Below, piece after piece: positions 11,741-15,974 of a DNA stretch of 64,000 nucleotides. Made by a program: the position numbers and the translations under genes. Source of the DNA: Methyloceanibacter caenitepidi (GTDB taxonomy: Bacteria > Pseudomonadota > Alphaproteobacteria > Rhizobiales > Methyloligellaceae); the NCBI RefSeq assembly GCF_000828475.1, contig NZ_AP014648.1, forward strand, positions 868,001-932,000, given 5' to 3'. Each line of letters starts with the position of its first letter. Position 1 is the stretch's first letter. The notes under the pieces were generated by a model. That model was not told the DNA's origin. It was given only the letters and a program-made list of their open reading frames with translations, and searched no databases.

Positions 11741-11815
11741 GCGGGTGTAGCTCAGTGGTAGAGCAGTAGCTTCCCAAGCTACGTGTCGCGGGTTCGATTC
11801 CCGCTACCCGCTCCA
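11741..11815 (+). tRNA. tRNA-Gly (CCC)
   Basis: A full cloverleaf: acceptor GCGGGTG/TACCCGC, D arm GCTCAGTGGTAGAGC, anticodon stem GTAGC/GCTAC with loop TTCCCAA (anticodon CCC), T stem GCGGG/CCCGC with loop TTCGATT, and an encoded CCA. The last acceptor pair is G-T, whereas the distal copy at 15929 offers a C there and would pair perfectly. This suggests the present 3' half was supplied by an integrating element. Confidence 0.95.
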
Positions 11816-11838
11816 ATAAATCAATGACTTAGCAGACT

Positions 11839-11861
11839 TGGTACGCTGGCCGGTCTGGTAC
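11839..11861 (+). repeat. TGGTAC direct repeats, possible arm-type sites (left)
   Basis: TGGTAC occurs at 11839-11844 and again at 11856-11861. The same hexamer returns near the right end of the element at 13574-13579 with its inverse GTACCA at 13583-13588. Two copies near one attachment end and one or two near the other is the usual layout of integrase arm sites, but a hexamer is short, so this is tentative. Confidence 0.35.
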
Positions 11862-12020
11862 ATCGTACATTATAGGTTACAAGTCAGGCACCGTAGCCTC
11901 CCCAGCTATTGCCCGTCGCGCTCTAATGCCCTGTCTAAGCGTGGTCCTGCGCGGTCAACCTTGAGTATCCTAGTCGCTAACTTGTGGAGCGATTCGGGCT
12001 GCTTAGGGACCAACGGGACG

Positions 12021-12638
12021 ATGCTCAAGTTTTACCGGCGCTGGATTCACACTGCGGTTTTCCATTCGCTAGGACCCGTCGACCTGTGGACTGGCCTGAT
12101 CGCGTCTGCCCTCGGCGTTCTGGATCACTTTCTGCCAGAGCTTGGCCTAATGACGACCTATGGCTGGCAGATACCAGTCTGGGCATTCGCAGCCGTGATC
12201 ACGGTCCGGCTGCTCCTAGCTCCCTATTGGATGTGGCAAGAGAGCCAGAAGACTCTCCTAGTTTTGAGAGCAGCAGTCGATTCAAACCAGAACCGTGCTG
12301 AAGCGGCTGCCGCCAAGGCGGAGGGCTTCAAAACTCTAATAGCGCGCGGGAAGGAGTTGGCGCGTGAGGGTGTTCACTCGACTGAGGAGTACGCGGCATG
12401 GGACGCCAAATACGATTCTTGGGCGGAGGAAGCCAAGGAGTACATCAAGAACAATGAAGGGCATCGGGCGGCAGGTATTTTCCGGCGCGGCTCGATGATG
12501 GTTGTTCAGCGCATGCAGAACGCGTTTAACGATGACCACAACGCGCGTCTCAACATCCTTTGGGAGAAGATTTCCGATCTTACGACCCACTACGAAAATG
12601 CAATGGACGAGAAGCGTATATGGGCGGCGGACAAGTGA
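12021..12638 (+). CDS. Unknown membrane-anchored helical protein (element A)
   Basis: A 205-residue protein. Two hydrophobic segments lie in the N-terminal third (about 17-36, around LWTGLIASALGVLDHF, and about 47-70, around IPVWAFAAVITVRLLLAPYW). A long charged, Ala/Glu/Lys-rich helical region follows and is probably coiled coil (AEAAAAKAEGFKTLIARGKE; YAAWDAKYDSWAEEAKEY). The C-terminus resembles a cytoplasmic helical bundle. The ATG at 12021 (MLKFYRRW) follows GGGAC; a longer in-frame start exists but lacks a site. I do not recognise a family. It faces the other membrane-protein gene of the element, 19 bases away, and the local sequence is less GC-rich than the flanking core genes. Confidence 0.6.
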   Translation: MLKFYRRWIHTAVFHSLGPVDLWTGLIASALGVLDHFLPELGLMTTYGWQIPVWAFAAVITVRLLLAPYWMWQESQKTLLVLRAAVDSNQNRAEAAAAKAEGFKTLIARGKELAREGVHSTEEYAAWDAKYDSWAEEAKEYIKNNEGHRAAGIFRRGSMMVVQRMQNAFNDDHNARLNILWEKISDLTTHYENAMDEKRIWAADK

Positions 12639-12657
12639 AGCTCGATAGAGATGCGTT

Positions 12658-13512
12658 CTAGGCGGCTTTTGGCTGTGGCTTGTTTTTGGGCTCTCGCCCG
12701 TCGTCGATTTCGGAAGACTCTTGCCCATCCTTCACAGCTATCGATGCGGCTATGCGATCGTCTGTGTAGTACATGAGCACCTCGGGTCGAACGTCAAAGG
12801 CCACGGCATATACGCGCACGATAATTGGAAGCGCACTGGCCTCAGAGTAGCAGTACAAATGAAGCCGATTCCCTCGCCGAAGTCTCACGCTGCCGCGCAG
12901 CGCAGGACGCCATAGCAGGAGCACAGGAGCGACGGGGTGCAGGTAGAACCTGCCAACGAGCATGCACCGGATCAGGTGGGCAGGACCTTCGACTTCCATG
13001 ACATAGTCAACGAGAGAATCTTTCGGGATGCCACGAATTCTGTAGGCTTGGCCCGTTCCATTGTCGCTTGCTGACCATTCGTAAGTGAACAGGTGCTGTC
13101 GCTGGTGGTAGATGAACCGCGAGCCCTTCCAACATCCCTCGGCTCTCTCAGCGTAGTGGTTCCGAAAGGGTGCCAAGCAAATACTGATCAGTGCCCAGAC
13201 GGGCAGTGTTGCCAGCAAGGCGAGGCCGCCAGCGCTAATCATGATCGATTGATCGATGACTCCTTCCCAGCCTGCAAAGAGGAAAACAAAGAACAGGAAA
13301 AAGGGCACGCAACACAGCTGGAACAATGAGCCAGAACTCAATAGGGGGCTGGAAAACCCCCGCCAAAATTCCCTGCCAATCCCGCGTGCGCGCGACAGCC
13401 ATTTGATGACCGTGGGGTTCCTAATCCAGCGATCACGGCCACCCTTCTCCTGGTGAACAGCTGTTCCTGGTGGGACCCCTAGTTCGGCTTTGCGATTTTT
13501 GCGTGCAACCAT
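12658..13512 (-). CDS. Unknown two-helix membrane protein (element A)
   Basis: A 284-residue protein. The first ~60 residues are basic and soluble. Two transmembrane helices follow (about 62-83, LCCVPFFLFFVFLFAGW, and about 92-113, SAGGLALLATLPVWALI). After them comes a beta-rich soluble domain with YIYHQ-type aromatic strands (FIYHQRQHLFTYEW, YRIRGIPKDSLVDYVMEVEG, RLHLYCYSEASALPIIVRVY). The tail is short and charged (EPKNKPQPKAA). No catalytic motif or family is recognised. It converges on the coiled-coil membrane protein, and the two are the only genes between the tRNA-derived repeats, so they probably form a functional pair. A host-defence or exclusion role is a hypothesis based only on location. 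Confidence 0.6.
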   Translation of the reverse strand: MVARKNRKAELGVPPGTAVHQEKGGRDRWIRNPTVIKWLSRARGIGREFWRGFSSPLLSSGSLFQLCCVPFFLFFVFLFAGWEGVIDQSIMISAGGLALLATLPVWALISICLAPFRNHYAERAEGCWKGSRFIYHQRQHLFTYEWSASDNGTGQAYRIRGIPKDSLVDYVMEVEGPAHLIRCMLVGRFYLHPVAPVLLLWRPALRGSVRLRRGNRLHLYCYSEASALPIIVRVYAVAFDVRPEVLMYYTDDRIAASIAVKDGQESSEIDDGREPKNKPQPKAA

Positions 13513-13573
13513 CGCAGTACTCTAAACCGAGTCGCACATCCTGCTTGGTAGTAAAGAGGAAGATTAAGTCGAG

Positions 13574-13588
13574 TGGTACGACGTACCA
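13574..13588. repeat. TGGTAC/GTACCA palindrome near right end of element A
   Basis: TGGTACGACGTACCA is a near-perfect palindrome that repeats the hexamer found twice at the left end of the same element. It may be an arm-type recombinase site or an operator for the adjacent gene. Confidence 0.35.
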
Positions 13589-13683
13589 GGAACCCGTGAA
13601 CATCAGGGCAACACAGACGCGAAATGATACTTCGGGGAAACTTAAAAAGTAAATTTCTCAATGATTTAAGGGAAGCGCCGCAC

Positions 13684-13729
13684 CTTCCCAAGCTACGTGT
13701 CGAGGGTTCGATTCCCTCTACCCGCTCCA
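13684..13729 (+). repeat. Second copy of tRNA-Gly 3' half (att site between elements A and B)
   Basis: Repeats the tRNA from the anticodon loop through CCA. The 19-base core CTTCCCAAGCTACGTGTCG is identical to the tRNA. The T stem is GAGGG/CCCTC instead of GCGGG/CCCGC, a compensated change, so it derives from a functional tRNA sequence and has not simply decayed. Confidence 0.8.
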
Positions 13730-13764
13730 TTATTTCAATAACTTAGCGGAATTCGCCGCAAAGT

Positions 13765-13789
13765 GTTCCGACTTTGCGTTCCGACTTTT
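13765..13789 (+). repeat. Two GTTCCGACTTT direct repeats (left arm of element B)
   Basis: GTTCCGACTTT at 13765-13775 is repeated at 13778-13788, 13 bases apart, and a third copy is at 15846-15856 near the opposite end. Eleven identical bases in three places, confined to the two element ends, fit arm-type recombinase binding sites. Confidence 0.5.
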
Positions 13790-14307
13790 GGATCTGTCGG
13801 GTTCTGGGCCTGTCCGCCCGCCCCTTTTGGGGTGACCAGGAAGTCCTAACGCGCGCGCATTGAACCGCTGACTGCGAGCGTGGCATAATTTACGGGAATA
13901 CGGTTGGGTCGCCGAACTGATTAAGGGCGCCTGCTCTGCCGTTACGGCATGGTTCGTTCCGCTCGGGGCCTACATCTTGGGTTTTTCCCTTACGATGGAG
14001 GTGACGTTGGAAGCACATGTCGATTTGTGTGTGGTTATGCTCGCGGCGGCGTGGGTCCCGAGTGGGTAAAGGCAGAACCATGCAGGTAACGGAGCAACGG
14101 GCGCTGCGATCAGATTAGTGACCTAGGCTCGCCGCGTAGGGGGGTGCAATTCCCCCCACCCACACCCCTTCGGGTCCACTGTAGCGCATTCTCCAAAAGC
14201 GATGGCTTCACTCTAGCGCCAAGCGAGAGACGCAGTAGTTGTGGCTTGTGCAAGGGCAGCTCTTTGGTACACCTATAGGGGGATAATCAGACTTCGGGCA
14301 ATATGAA
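13790..14307. other. Non-coding stretch at the left of element B with a tRNA T-arm-like hairpin
   Basis: I find no convincing gene in these about 500 bases. At 14139-14157 six G pair with six C around the 7-base loop TGCAATT, followed by CCCACACC. The shape resembles a tRNA T arm plus acceptor strand with one base off the T-loop consensus, but no matching 5' half could be built. It could be a relic of a further attachment event, a terminator-like hairpin or a small RNA. Confidence 0.3.
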
Positions 14308-15444
14308 ATGGCGAAGGATCAGGACCTGGATGCCGCGGCGGCGGATCCGTTTCTACTCGAGAAGCTCTATCCTGATGCCACGACGCTGTTCAGCACACAT
14401 GTCGTTGGATCCGTCTCCGATGGGTCGATTTTGGTTGCGTTCGACACCAACTCGCTGCTGCTTCCCTACCAACTAAAGGGTGGCGACCTCGAAGAAATAA
14501 CTAAGGTGCTGACCAAACTATCCGACGAGAAGCGCCTGTTTGTGCCGGACCGTGTCGTACGGGAGTTCGCAAAGCACCGCGACAGCGACCTCGCCAAAGT
14601 CATTCACGCTCTTAACCTGAGAAAAGCTGTCCCCTCCGGCGAGATGCCTCCCATGATTAGAGAAATGGGCGGCCACGAAGAGGCTCAAAGTGCATACGAT
14701 GACTTGCTAGAAGCACACAAAAAATACGCAAAGAAGTTGGACGGGCTAATTCAAAAAATCAAGAAATGGCGGGGTGATGACCCAGTCTCGAATTTATATG
14801 AGCAAGTCTTCGATGCGGAGAGCATCATAAAGCTCCCGAACGACGAGGCCGACAAGGAGAAATATTTGGAGGAGTTGAGGTGGCGTTTCGATAACAAGGT
14901 GCCGCCCGGCTACAAGGACGCGAGCAAGGACGACCTAGGTATTGGGGACTTTTTGATCTGGAAAGCGCTATTGCAGTTGGGATCCTCGGAGAAGAAGGAC
15001 CTTGCGTTTGTAACCGGTGAGCAGAAGGCCGATTGGTTCGTTCGGGGTGACAAGGAGGCGCCGTATCTCCGGTATGAACTCATTGATGAATATCGCCGCG
15101 CGTCTGGTGGTAAGGCGGTTCGGCTACTTACCTTCAACCAACTTCTGAAAGAGATGGAGGCGCCAGACGCCGTAGTTAAGAAGGTCAGAAAGGCCGAAGA
15201 AGAAGCCAACACAGCTCTCTTGAAAGCCCGGATGGACCGAGTTGCGGGCTTGAGCACGTCGTTGGCCAAGACACTAAGAGAGCAAGGCGATCTTAGTCCC
15301 TCGGAATTTGACAAATGGATCGTCCACGCCAGTAAGCTAAGCCTGTCCCGTGAACTCGTGCGCAAGTGGGCTGATTACATTAAGGAGACCCCCACCGTTC
15401 TTCCGAGCGCTGAGGATCTGCCTGAGGAAGACGGCGACCAATAA
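14308..15444 (+). CDS. PIN-like domain protein, putative ribonuclease (element B)
   Basis: A 378-residue protein with a PIN-like nuclease fold similar to the PIN_8/DUF4935 type. Candidate metal ligands are D46 in VAFDTNSLLLPY, D81/E86 in VPDRVVREFAKH, D214 in GIGDFLIWKALL, and E238/D242 in FVTGEQKADWF. KVPPGYKDASKDD (about 198-210) is a recognisable block just before the third acidic site. A long charged helical insert lies at about 125-195 and a helical C-terminal domain at about 290-360. Proteins of this type are often found in defence or mobile loci. Here it is the main cargo between tRNA-derived repeats and faces an XRE regulator. RNase activity is inferred from the family. The upstream ribosome-binding site is weak. 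Confidence 0.72.
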   Translation: MAKDQDLDAAAADPFLLEKLYPDATTLFSTHVVGSVSDGSILVAFDTNSLLLPYQLKGGDLEEITKVLTKLSDEKRLFVPDRVVREFAKHRDSDLAKVIHALNLRKAVPSGEMPPMIREMGGHEEAQSAYDDLLEAHKKYAKKLDGLIQKIKKWRGDDPVSNLYEQVFDAESIIKLPNDEADKEKYLEELRWRFDNKVPPGYKDASKDDLGIGDFLIWKALLQLGSSEKKDLAFVTGEQKADWFVRGDKEAPYLRYELIDEYRRASGGKAVRLLTFNQLLKEMEAPDAVVKKVRKAEEEANTALLKARMDRVAGLSTSLAKTLREQGDLSPSEFDKWIVHASKLSLSRELVRKWADYIKETPTVLPSAEDLPEEDGDQ

Positions 15445-15498
15445 TAGTCCATGATCACCACACGGTGCGAATGCGCGTACCGAGTTAGATCGTCCTCA

Positions 15499-15774
15499 CT
15501 AGCCAAAACCGGTCTTCCGGACGCGACGGTTGAACGTCGGGATTGAGGCATCCGCAAAAAGCCACTCGACGTCCACACGACACGCGAGACAAAATCTCGG
15601 GATCAGGTGGTGGGGCATCAATGTGGGAGGTTGTCGAGCGCCTTCGTATTTCGAGTATGCGCTTTGTTTGATCCCTAGCAGCGTTGCGATCTCAGCTTGG
15701 GAGTAGCCAGATCGTTCGCGCGCCAACCTTACTCGAGCCGCAAACTGATCCCGGAATGCTTTTGGCGTAGCCAC
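15499..15774 (-). CDS. Small XRE-family helix-turn-helix protein (element B)
   Basis: A 91-residue DNA-binding protein with the XRE HTH in RVRLARERSGYSQAEIATLL and GIKQSAYSKYEGARQP (about residues 14-48). A short tail follows containing FCLACRVDVEWLFAD. The GTG at 15774 is chosen because GGGGGAAT lies 9 bases upstream. A longer in-frame reading runs into the tRNA-derived repeat and is an artefact. The gene converges with the PIN-like nuclease gene in the same element and could control it or the excision of the element. A toxin-antitoxin arrangement is possible but unusual, as the genes are convergent and not co-transcribed. Confidence 0.72.
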   Translation of the reverse strand: MATPKAFRDQFAARVRLARERSGYSQAEIATLLGIKQSAYSKYEGARQPPTLMPHHLIPRFCLACRVDVEWLFADASIPTFNRRVRKTGFG

Positions 15775-15845
15775 GGCGCCGTATTCCCCCAACCACACGG
15801 TCCCGAATGCTAGGGACACAATGTCCCCCACACAAGCCGAATAGC

Positions 15846-15858
15846 GTTCCGACTTTTT
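15846..15858 (+). repeat. Third GTTCCGACTTT repeat (right arm of element B)
   Basis: The same 11 bases as the pair at 13765-13788 occur here, about 70 bases inside the right attachment copy and upstream of the XRE gene. It may be an arm-type site or an operator for that regulator. Confidence 0.45.
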
Positions 15859-15928
15859 GCCAAATGACGACACGTTAGGGGAGCCAGAAAGTTGGAACAC
15901 TGCTTGATTTTGTAGGGAAAACCTTACG

Positions 15929-15974
15929 CTTCCCAAGCTACGTGTCGGGCGTTCGATCCGCCTCACCCGCTCCA
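15929..15974 (+). repeat. Third copy of tRNA-Gly 3' half (distal att, probable original host end)
   Basis: It starts with the same 19-base core CTTCCCAAGCTACGTGTCG and ends CACCCGCTCCA. CACCCGC pairs perfectly with the GCGGGTG acceptor of the tRNA 4.2 kb upstream, better than the TACCCGC now present there. This is the expected position of the displaced original 3' half after two successive integrations. Confidence 0.75.

Follow-up and report, generated by a model that had tools for sequence, protein, structure and literature searches.

An integrase-less mini-island at tRNA-Gly(CCC) of Methyloceanibacter caenitepidi carries a PIN_8 protein, a candidate anti-phage ribonuclease

Introduction

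What is the function of a 2.2-kb DNA segment that is held between two copies of a tRNA end, carries a nuclease-like gene and has no recognised integrase? Such a segment lies in the 64,000-nt stretch of DNA analysed here (the window; 868001–932000 of the 3.42-Mb single-contig genome of M. caenitepidi). The original prediction saw a PIN-like nuclease and an XRE protein that together formed a two-gene unit on a mini-element. The PIN protein and the mini-element stood up to our analysis, but the two-gene unit and one of the proposed active-site residues (D81) did not. The lack of a recognised integrase, the repeats near both ends and the prophage and defence genes around PIN relatives are additions to that prediction. 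On balance, we favour a stand-alone anti-phage effector that would cut RNA and resides on an integrase-less mini-island.

Results

Layout of the locus

The features of the locus are as follows (window positions).

11741–11815, plus strand: tRNA-Gly(CCC), the integration target (ARAGORN; Rfam tRNA, 70.3 bits)
11816–13683, no strand: element 1, 1.9 kb, two ORFs, absent from the two closest relatives
13684–13729, plus strand: attachment copy 2, 46 nt, a repeat of the tRNA 3' part and the boundary of elements 1 and 2
13765–13788, plus strand: two arm-like repeats GTTCCGACTTT, 13 bp apart (starts 13765 and 13778), at the left end of element 2
14308–15444, plus strand: PIN_8 protein, 378 aa, predicted metal-dependent ribonuclease (Pfam, PHROG, acidic residues, model)
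15499–15774, minus strand: XRE/HTH regulator, 91 aa, GTG start (Pfam HTH_31, HTH_3)
15813–15827, no strand: perfect palindrome GGGACA-CAA-TGTCCC upstream of the XRE gene, candidate operator (sequence)
15846–15856, plus strand: arm-like repeat GTTCCGACTTT at the right end of element 2 (sequence)
15888–15898, minus strand: inverted arm-like repeat GTTCCAACTTT, one mismatch (sequence)
15929–15974, plus strand: attachment copy 3 of 46 nt, at the right edge of element 2, from where the two closest relatives align again

Element 2 is the segment bounded by the two 46-nt copies of the tRNA-Gly(CCC) 3' part, as expected of the predicted second mini-element. It stands in tandem with the unrelated element 1, which comes first after the tRNA. 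The PIN gene faces the XRE gene tail to tail, with a gap of 54 bp between the ORFs. Apart from these two, element 2 showed no gene-like ORF that begins with a usual start codon, in agreement with the original prediction; the 576 bp at 13732–14307 hold no ordinary gene. This gene-poor part contains a 65-codon open frame (13872–14066) that has no usual start and appears hydrophobic by eye; profile scans gave no noteworthy family match for it. The same part also contains a perfect G/C hairpin around TGCAATT (14137–14160), which we take to be reminiscent of a tmRNA 3' end. The hairpin has no second copy in the genome at up to 3 mismatches and no Rfam match. Elsewhere in the window, a SAM-alpha riboswitch is present at 2422–2499 on the minus strand; these riboswitches are ordinary in alphaproteobacteria.

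The two ORFs of element 1 (11838–12638, plus strand; 12658–13512, minus strand) are also convergent. Neither had a Pfam match at E ≤ 1 or was found in viral contigs, and the 284-aa protein matched nothing in NCBIfam or in plasmids. The two ends of element 1 share no word of at least 8 bases. They carry 4 of the window's 47 GGTAC/GTACC words, a weak hint at other sites.

Insertion at tRNA-Gly(CCC)

The 19-nt tRNA core CTTCCCAAGCTACGTGTCG occurs three times in the M. caenitepidi genome and once in each of 11 of the 29 other family genomes. An exact match was absent from the remaining 18, where a changed core or an assembly gap may explain the result. In the two closest relatives (G008 and G018), the flanks (86.8–88.5% identity) are joined at the tRNA and 11818–15927 is missing; both segments are therefore insertions. 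In 8 of the other 9 relatives, the alignment is weaker and the right flank starts again no more than ≈ 0.65 kb from the tRNA (in G015, it aligned from 18051 on); in the ninth, G017, the contig ends ≈ 0.5 kb past the tRNA. The G+C content is 55.0% in element 1 and 54.8% in element 2, versus 61.2% and 63.6% in the flanks. The PIN gene was not found in the 29 other family genomes. Element 2 thus has the direct attachment repeats as flanks and the empty site in relatives that define a cis-mobilizable element (CIME).

We aligned the tRNA of the window with those of 10 relatives (n = 11; G004, which has a one-base deletion, was omitted). Nucleotides 1–48 were identical, and all six variable positions fell within 49–65. 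The relatives had been searched with the 19-nt core, whose constancy is thus partly the result of selection; the first 29 nucleotides lie outside that pattern. The variation comprises two compensated T-stem pairs (49/63 and 51/61, pairs taken from the Rfam alignment), position 64 of the T-stem, where C or T faces G48 and the change is one-sided, and position 65, the first base of the acceptor.

The three copies in the window equal or resemble those of different relatives, a possible trace of repeated swapping of 3' halves by integrating elements. The 3' part of the present tRNA (11789–11815) equals that of G008, and the 3' part of copy 2 (last 27 nt) is identical to the tRNA of G018. The 3' part of copy 3 resembles G004, and its CACCCGC pairs fully with the tRNA 5' end GCGGGTG; copy 3 is therefore possibly the displaced original 3' half. 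The simple reading of these sequences is that each element would have brought its own tRNA 3' half and displaced the original to copy 3. The 3' half of the present tRNA-Gly(CCC) was then probably brought by element 1.

Mobilisation

None of the four element proteins matched integrase, relaxase or phage structural families in Pfam, PADLOC or PHROGs. The non-coding stretches contain 14 open frames of at least 40 codons; none of them matched an integrase PHROG, and the 4 that were scanned with Pfam gave no integrase relic. Four proteins and, by PHROGs, 14 frames are thus free of recognised integrase, relaxase and transfer genes, as is expected of CIMEs. The genome has 10 Phage_integrase matches, none of them inside element 1 or 2.

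Element 2 carries a 13-base repeat, CGTTCCGACTTTT, near both ends. It has no further exact copy in the genome; two copies with one mismatch occur elsewhere, and the reversed pattern, used as a control, gave 4 genome matches versus 4 for the real pattern. The 11-mer GTTCCGACTTT (≤ 1 mismatch) was found four times in the window, always within element 2; dinucleotide shuffling of the window reached that number in 1 of 100 rounds. The counts of 8- to 11-mers shared by the two ends were reached by 0 of 300 mononucleotide shuffles, for repeats that were noticed after the fact. End repeats of this kind have the look of arm-type sites of a tyrosine recombinase. Judged by their sequence, those of element 2 may be arm sites that serve a recombinase acting in trans. 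A search for a helper with the 13-mer gave nothing elsewhere in the genome, and the only match among 387 order genomes was the M. caenitepidi genome itself. Exact matching of the end repeat gave nothing in viral contigs, and the 11-mer was in none of the genome's 10 integrase loci (3.3–3.6 kb each).

The sections consulted of a study on Streptococcus salivarius describe CIMEs as att-flanked elements of 1.2–13 kb that have no recombination genes and stand in tandem with ICEs or IMEs (PMC7563491). Integrase-less islands at ssrA appear in the corresponding part of a Dehalococcoides study (PMC3146451); the part of PMC11476347 that was consulted contains nothing on a tRNA-Gly(CCC) site. The window elements are likewise att-flanked, free of recombination genes and in tandem (1.9 and 2.2 kb). 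Unlike the described CIME arrays, however, this one holds no ICE, IME or integrase-bearing island and its cargo is a PIN_8 protein; no parent element or helper was found. Elements 1 and 2 fit a tandem pair of CIME-like elements, and their tandem arrangement fits accretion.

The PIN_8 protein

The 378-residue protein matched Pfam PIN_8 (PF18476, formerly DUF4935) with E = 6.9 × 10−35 and 121.5 bits versus a cut-off of 26.1, over profile positions 1–227 of 227. The PIN-like domain of the original prediction is therefore confirmed. PIN_12 also matched (34.5 bits against a cut-off of 32), and the Pfam scan at E ≤ 1 gave in addition only a sub-threshold PIN_9 match, and none to PIN_5 (HARP). PHROG 9788 (phrog_9788) matched residues 42–284 with E = 3.3 × 10−34. 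No PADLOC-DB family (library of 2023) matched at E ≤ 1.

In an alignment of 12 rows (A1), E86, D214 and D242 were kept in all rows, and D46 was kept in all 11 rows that reach its position. Position 238 was D or E in 12 of 12 rows, and D158 was kept in 11 of 12. The conserved acidic residues of a PIN active site are thus present. The predicted series of ordered acidic residues holds for D46, E86, D214, D242 and the acid at 238, but not for D81, which is not conserved since it occurs in 2 of the 12 rows.

An AlphaFold model was built from six sequences. Its mean pLDDT was 68.1; the ten-residue means ranged from 56 to 93 over residues 41–300, and residues 1–31 and 337–378 were below 50. The model contains the long helical insert that had been anticipated, at ≈ 107–211, flanked by the helices that carry E86 and D214 (insert helices modelled at 115–195). 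The best Foldseek match in the PDB had E = 0.73, which is not significant alone. Foldseek's list was then compared using VIA-align, for which Z values near 8 can be common according to the tool's own warning. Three hypothetical archaeal proteins and Pyrococcus horikoshii VapC4 (Z = 9.2) came out on top with Z of 9.1–9.4, followed by a Rickettsia VapC at 8.8, so that the top five rows span 8.8–9.4; RNA-free RNase P chains scored 7.0–8.1. Among the best 25 rows, 17 were titled VapC, VapBC, toxin–antitoxin or FitAB (12) or RNA-free RNase P (5). With a model of moderate confidence, the predicted fold thus best matches PIN nucleases, which agrees with the proposed PIN fold. A PDB sequence search with the PIN profile gave no match at E ≤ 10.

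From these data we infer that the protein is a metal-dependent ribonuclease. The likeness to PIN/HARP-type folds with a helical insert points to RNA, perhaps tRNA, as the likeliest substrate. HARP, a minimal RNase P, is described in the part of PMC8266387 consulted as a PIN domain with an inserted spike-helix domain that is a proposed tRNA binder and forms the dimer. The window protein shares with HARP a PIN domain with inserted helices, with the VIA-align scores given above. However, HARP belongs to PIN_5, whereas the window protein is of another Pfam family and has a longer insert and extra N- and C-terminal parts. It shares the PIN fold of VapC in the model comparison but is more than twice the size, and no VapB partner was seen.

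The C-terminal part (15130–15441) is faintly like MC5, an ABC-3C middle component (L005:1255–1770). The match had E = 9.1 × 10−4 in 1 of 397 genomes; BLASTP gave 28% identity over 100 residues and hhalign gave 35% probability over 45 columns. There was no Pfam match for this link and nothing below E = 1 in plasmids.

Relatives of the PIN_8 protein and their surroundings

The protein query matched 4 of 397 order genomes (one of them in the C-terminal part only) and 6 of 385 class genomes, and the PIN_8 profile matched 9 of 385 class genomes with a patchy distribution; the M. caenitepidi genome is included in each count. Relatives were also found in 21 plasmid records, with plasmids of three bacterial phyla represented, and in 4 viral contigs, where a single-protein scan had given none. 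No match to phage records was obtained at E = 10−5.

We viewed the neighbourhoods of 25 loci (13 of the 21 plasmid, all 4 viral and 8 genome loci; L097 and L098 are near-duplicates). The closest relatives, with 41–46% identity in the best segment, are single genes. Three of them lie in viral contigs: L096, and the pair L097 and L098, in which genes for tail proteins and an endolysin are present. Another belongs to an integrase-bearing island next to tRNA-Met in Shinella (L002), and L003/L011 is a chromosomal copy, interrupted by a stop, whose neighbours are transport-type genes. As in the PIN_8 family, the window protein has the long stretch between E86 and D214, keeps the acids and matches the whole PIN_8 profile; its C-terminal part, however, is short and poorly predicted, whereas that of L002 and L096–L098 is longer and different. 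A further relative lies inside a prophage tail gene cluster (L018). Judged by eye, housekeeping-type genes surround those of L013, L014, L016 and the broken L011.

Candidate defence neighbours were chosen by eye and profile-scanned for part of the loci. Strong profile matches were obtained in four of them: AIPR/AbiU (L096), GmrSD/HEC-06 (L017), ABC-3C parts (L021), and a DrmC-like PLD protein with PIN_12 (L012). Weaker matches or annotation pointed to T5orf172 and a helicase (L015), an N-6 methylase (L119), a restriction endonuclease (L121) and ATPase-helicase rows (L123 and L124). Some of the scanned neighbours in L097, L012 and L096 had no profile match. In the two Roseobacteraceae plasmids (L123:1–7239 and L124:1317–5294), an ATP-binding protein is followed by a DEAD/DEAH helicase, an unknown protein and the PIN-like protein; this row is a candidate multi-gene defence system. 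On a Rhizobium plasmid (L118:595–5299), two protease genes, one for a trypsin-like enzyme and one for an S8 serine protease, lie directly upstream of the PIN_8 gene, perhaps a protease-triggered nuclease.

Two PIN_8 relatives are broken, by an internal stop (L011:9094–10437) or a split frame (L021:6558–7696), and the gene is therefore sometimes lost after arrival. Together with the gene-free 576 bp and the startless frame in element 2, they agree with decay of a larger island or prophage from which the integrase and further genes disappeared, while the PIN gene stayed behind as functionless cargo. We regard such a remnant as unlikely, because the PIN frame is intact with its catalytic positions kept, none of the 14 non-coding open frames matches an integrase PHROG and the repeats are preserved at both ends of element 2. 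The spread of relatives over plasmids of three phyla and viral contigs might instead suggest that the protein serves the mobile element, in RNA processing or in plasmid or prophage upkeep, rather than host phage defence. As relatives also occur as single chromosomal genes and beside defence genes, we find this quite improbable.

The XRE gene

The XRE frame, scanned with an upstream extension, matched Pfam HTH_31 and HTH_3 above the cut-off; the score against NCBIfam RstR was 30.7 bits, below the cut-off of 80. The best other match in the genome (50%, at 1558497–1558724) lies in prophage-like surroundings with phage-type replication, methyltransferase and repressor genes. Matches were found in 31 of 347 order genomes, M. 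caenitepidi included, and outside that genome the E-value was no better than 1.5 × 10−6. Eight phage records gave weak matches, some of them annotated as repressors; two viral contigs matched over 26 residues, and one plasmid matched. From its sequence, the palindrome at 15813–15827 may be the XRE operator.

The suggestion that PIN and XRE form an exact two-gene unit was not supported in either direction. The XRE protein and its prophage paralogue were compared by tblastn with up to 4 kb of flanking sequence at the 25 other PIN loci; no XRE relative was found within 4 kb of a PIN gene (best match E = 1.0), and the control recovered the known copies. In the reverse test, the PIN protein was compared by tblastn with 35 XRE loci and matched its own locus and 0 of the 34 others, which mostly extended 1.5 kb to each side. 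Since the pairing is absent from the 25 PIN loci and the 34 XRE loci, XRE is not a conserved partner of PIN. The two genes are convergent and form no operon, so that the conserved toxin–antitoxin operon of type II systems is not seen here.

A search for an RNA antitoxin or a structured leader gave in Rfam the tRNA and chance-level matches only. The leader folds no better than shuffles (z = 1.04) and has nothing in common, beyond chance, with the upstream regions of five relatives; terminator and promoter scans were at chance level.

It is very doubtful that PIN is a VapC-like toxin that keeps the element in the chromosome, with XRE as antitoxin and autoregulator: the genes are adjacent on a mobile element, XRE weakly matches the HipB and MqsA antitoxin models (below cut-off) and some PIN relatives have a different type of HTH gene nearby (in L002 a weak match, one gene upstream; in L020 and L120 annotated genes 2–3 kb away), but the convergent arrangement, the missing pairing at the 25 and 34 loci and the 378 aa of the PIN protein versus 132–145 aa for the named VapC chains matched argue against it.

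Discussion

The reading that we favour, a stand-alone anti-phage effector, may be described as follows. Element 2 would be a CIME-like mini-island that has no integrase of its own and forms a tandem at tRNA-Gly(CCC) with another element of this type. A tyrosine recombinase from elsewhere would have inserted element 2 by recognising the tRNA core and the GTTCCGACTTT sites. Upon phage infection, the PIN centre (D46, E86, D214 and D242) would cut RNA while the helical insert holds this substrate, most likely a tRNA or some other structured RNA, and the cut would stop either the phage or the cell. XRE would act as a phage-repressor-type regulator of the element and not as a dedicated antitoxin of PIN.

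A bolder version seems to us a long shot. Here element 2 would be a minimal, trans-mobilised defence cassette of ≈ 2.2 kb, made up only of arm sites, a PIN_8 ribonuclease and a phage-type XRE repressor that may read the prophage state and time nuclease expression or excision, and it would be pooled among related species. The XRE paralogue of M. caenitepidi is itself located in a prophage-like region. If this were true, related species would share integrase-less tRNA-Gly(CCC) cassettes and swap tRNA 3' halves through them.

A PIN_8 protein and a CIME-like element are already known kinds. What is new is a PIN_8 cargo in an integrase-less tandem array, with matching end repeats and variation of the tRNA half. 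A literature search for PF18476 gave no paper and one for DUF4935 gave one Pseudomonas genome study; nothing on a PIN_8 nuclease was among the matches listed. The part of PMC8297831 consulted covers PIN_4 only.

This locus offers a clean setting: a PIN_8 protein makes up most of what the mobile unit carries, relatives have the site in single copy, and one gene is therefore open to phage-defence testing. The array also hints at traffic of integrase-less cassettes between species through a single tRNA, whose T-stem keeps a trace of it.
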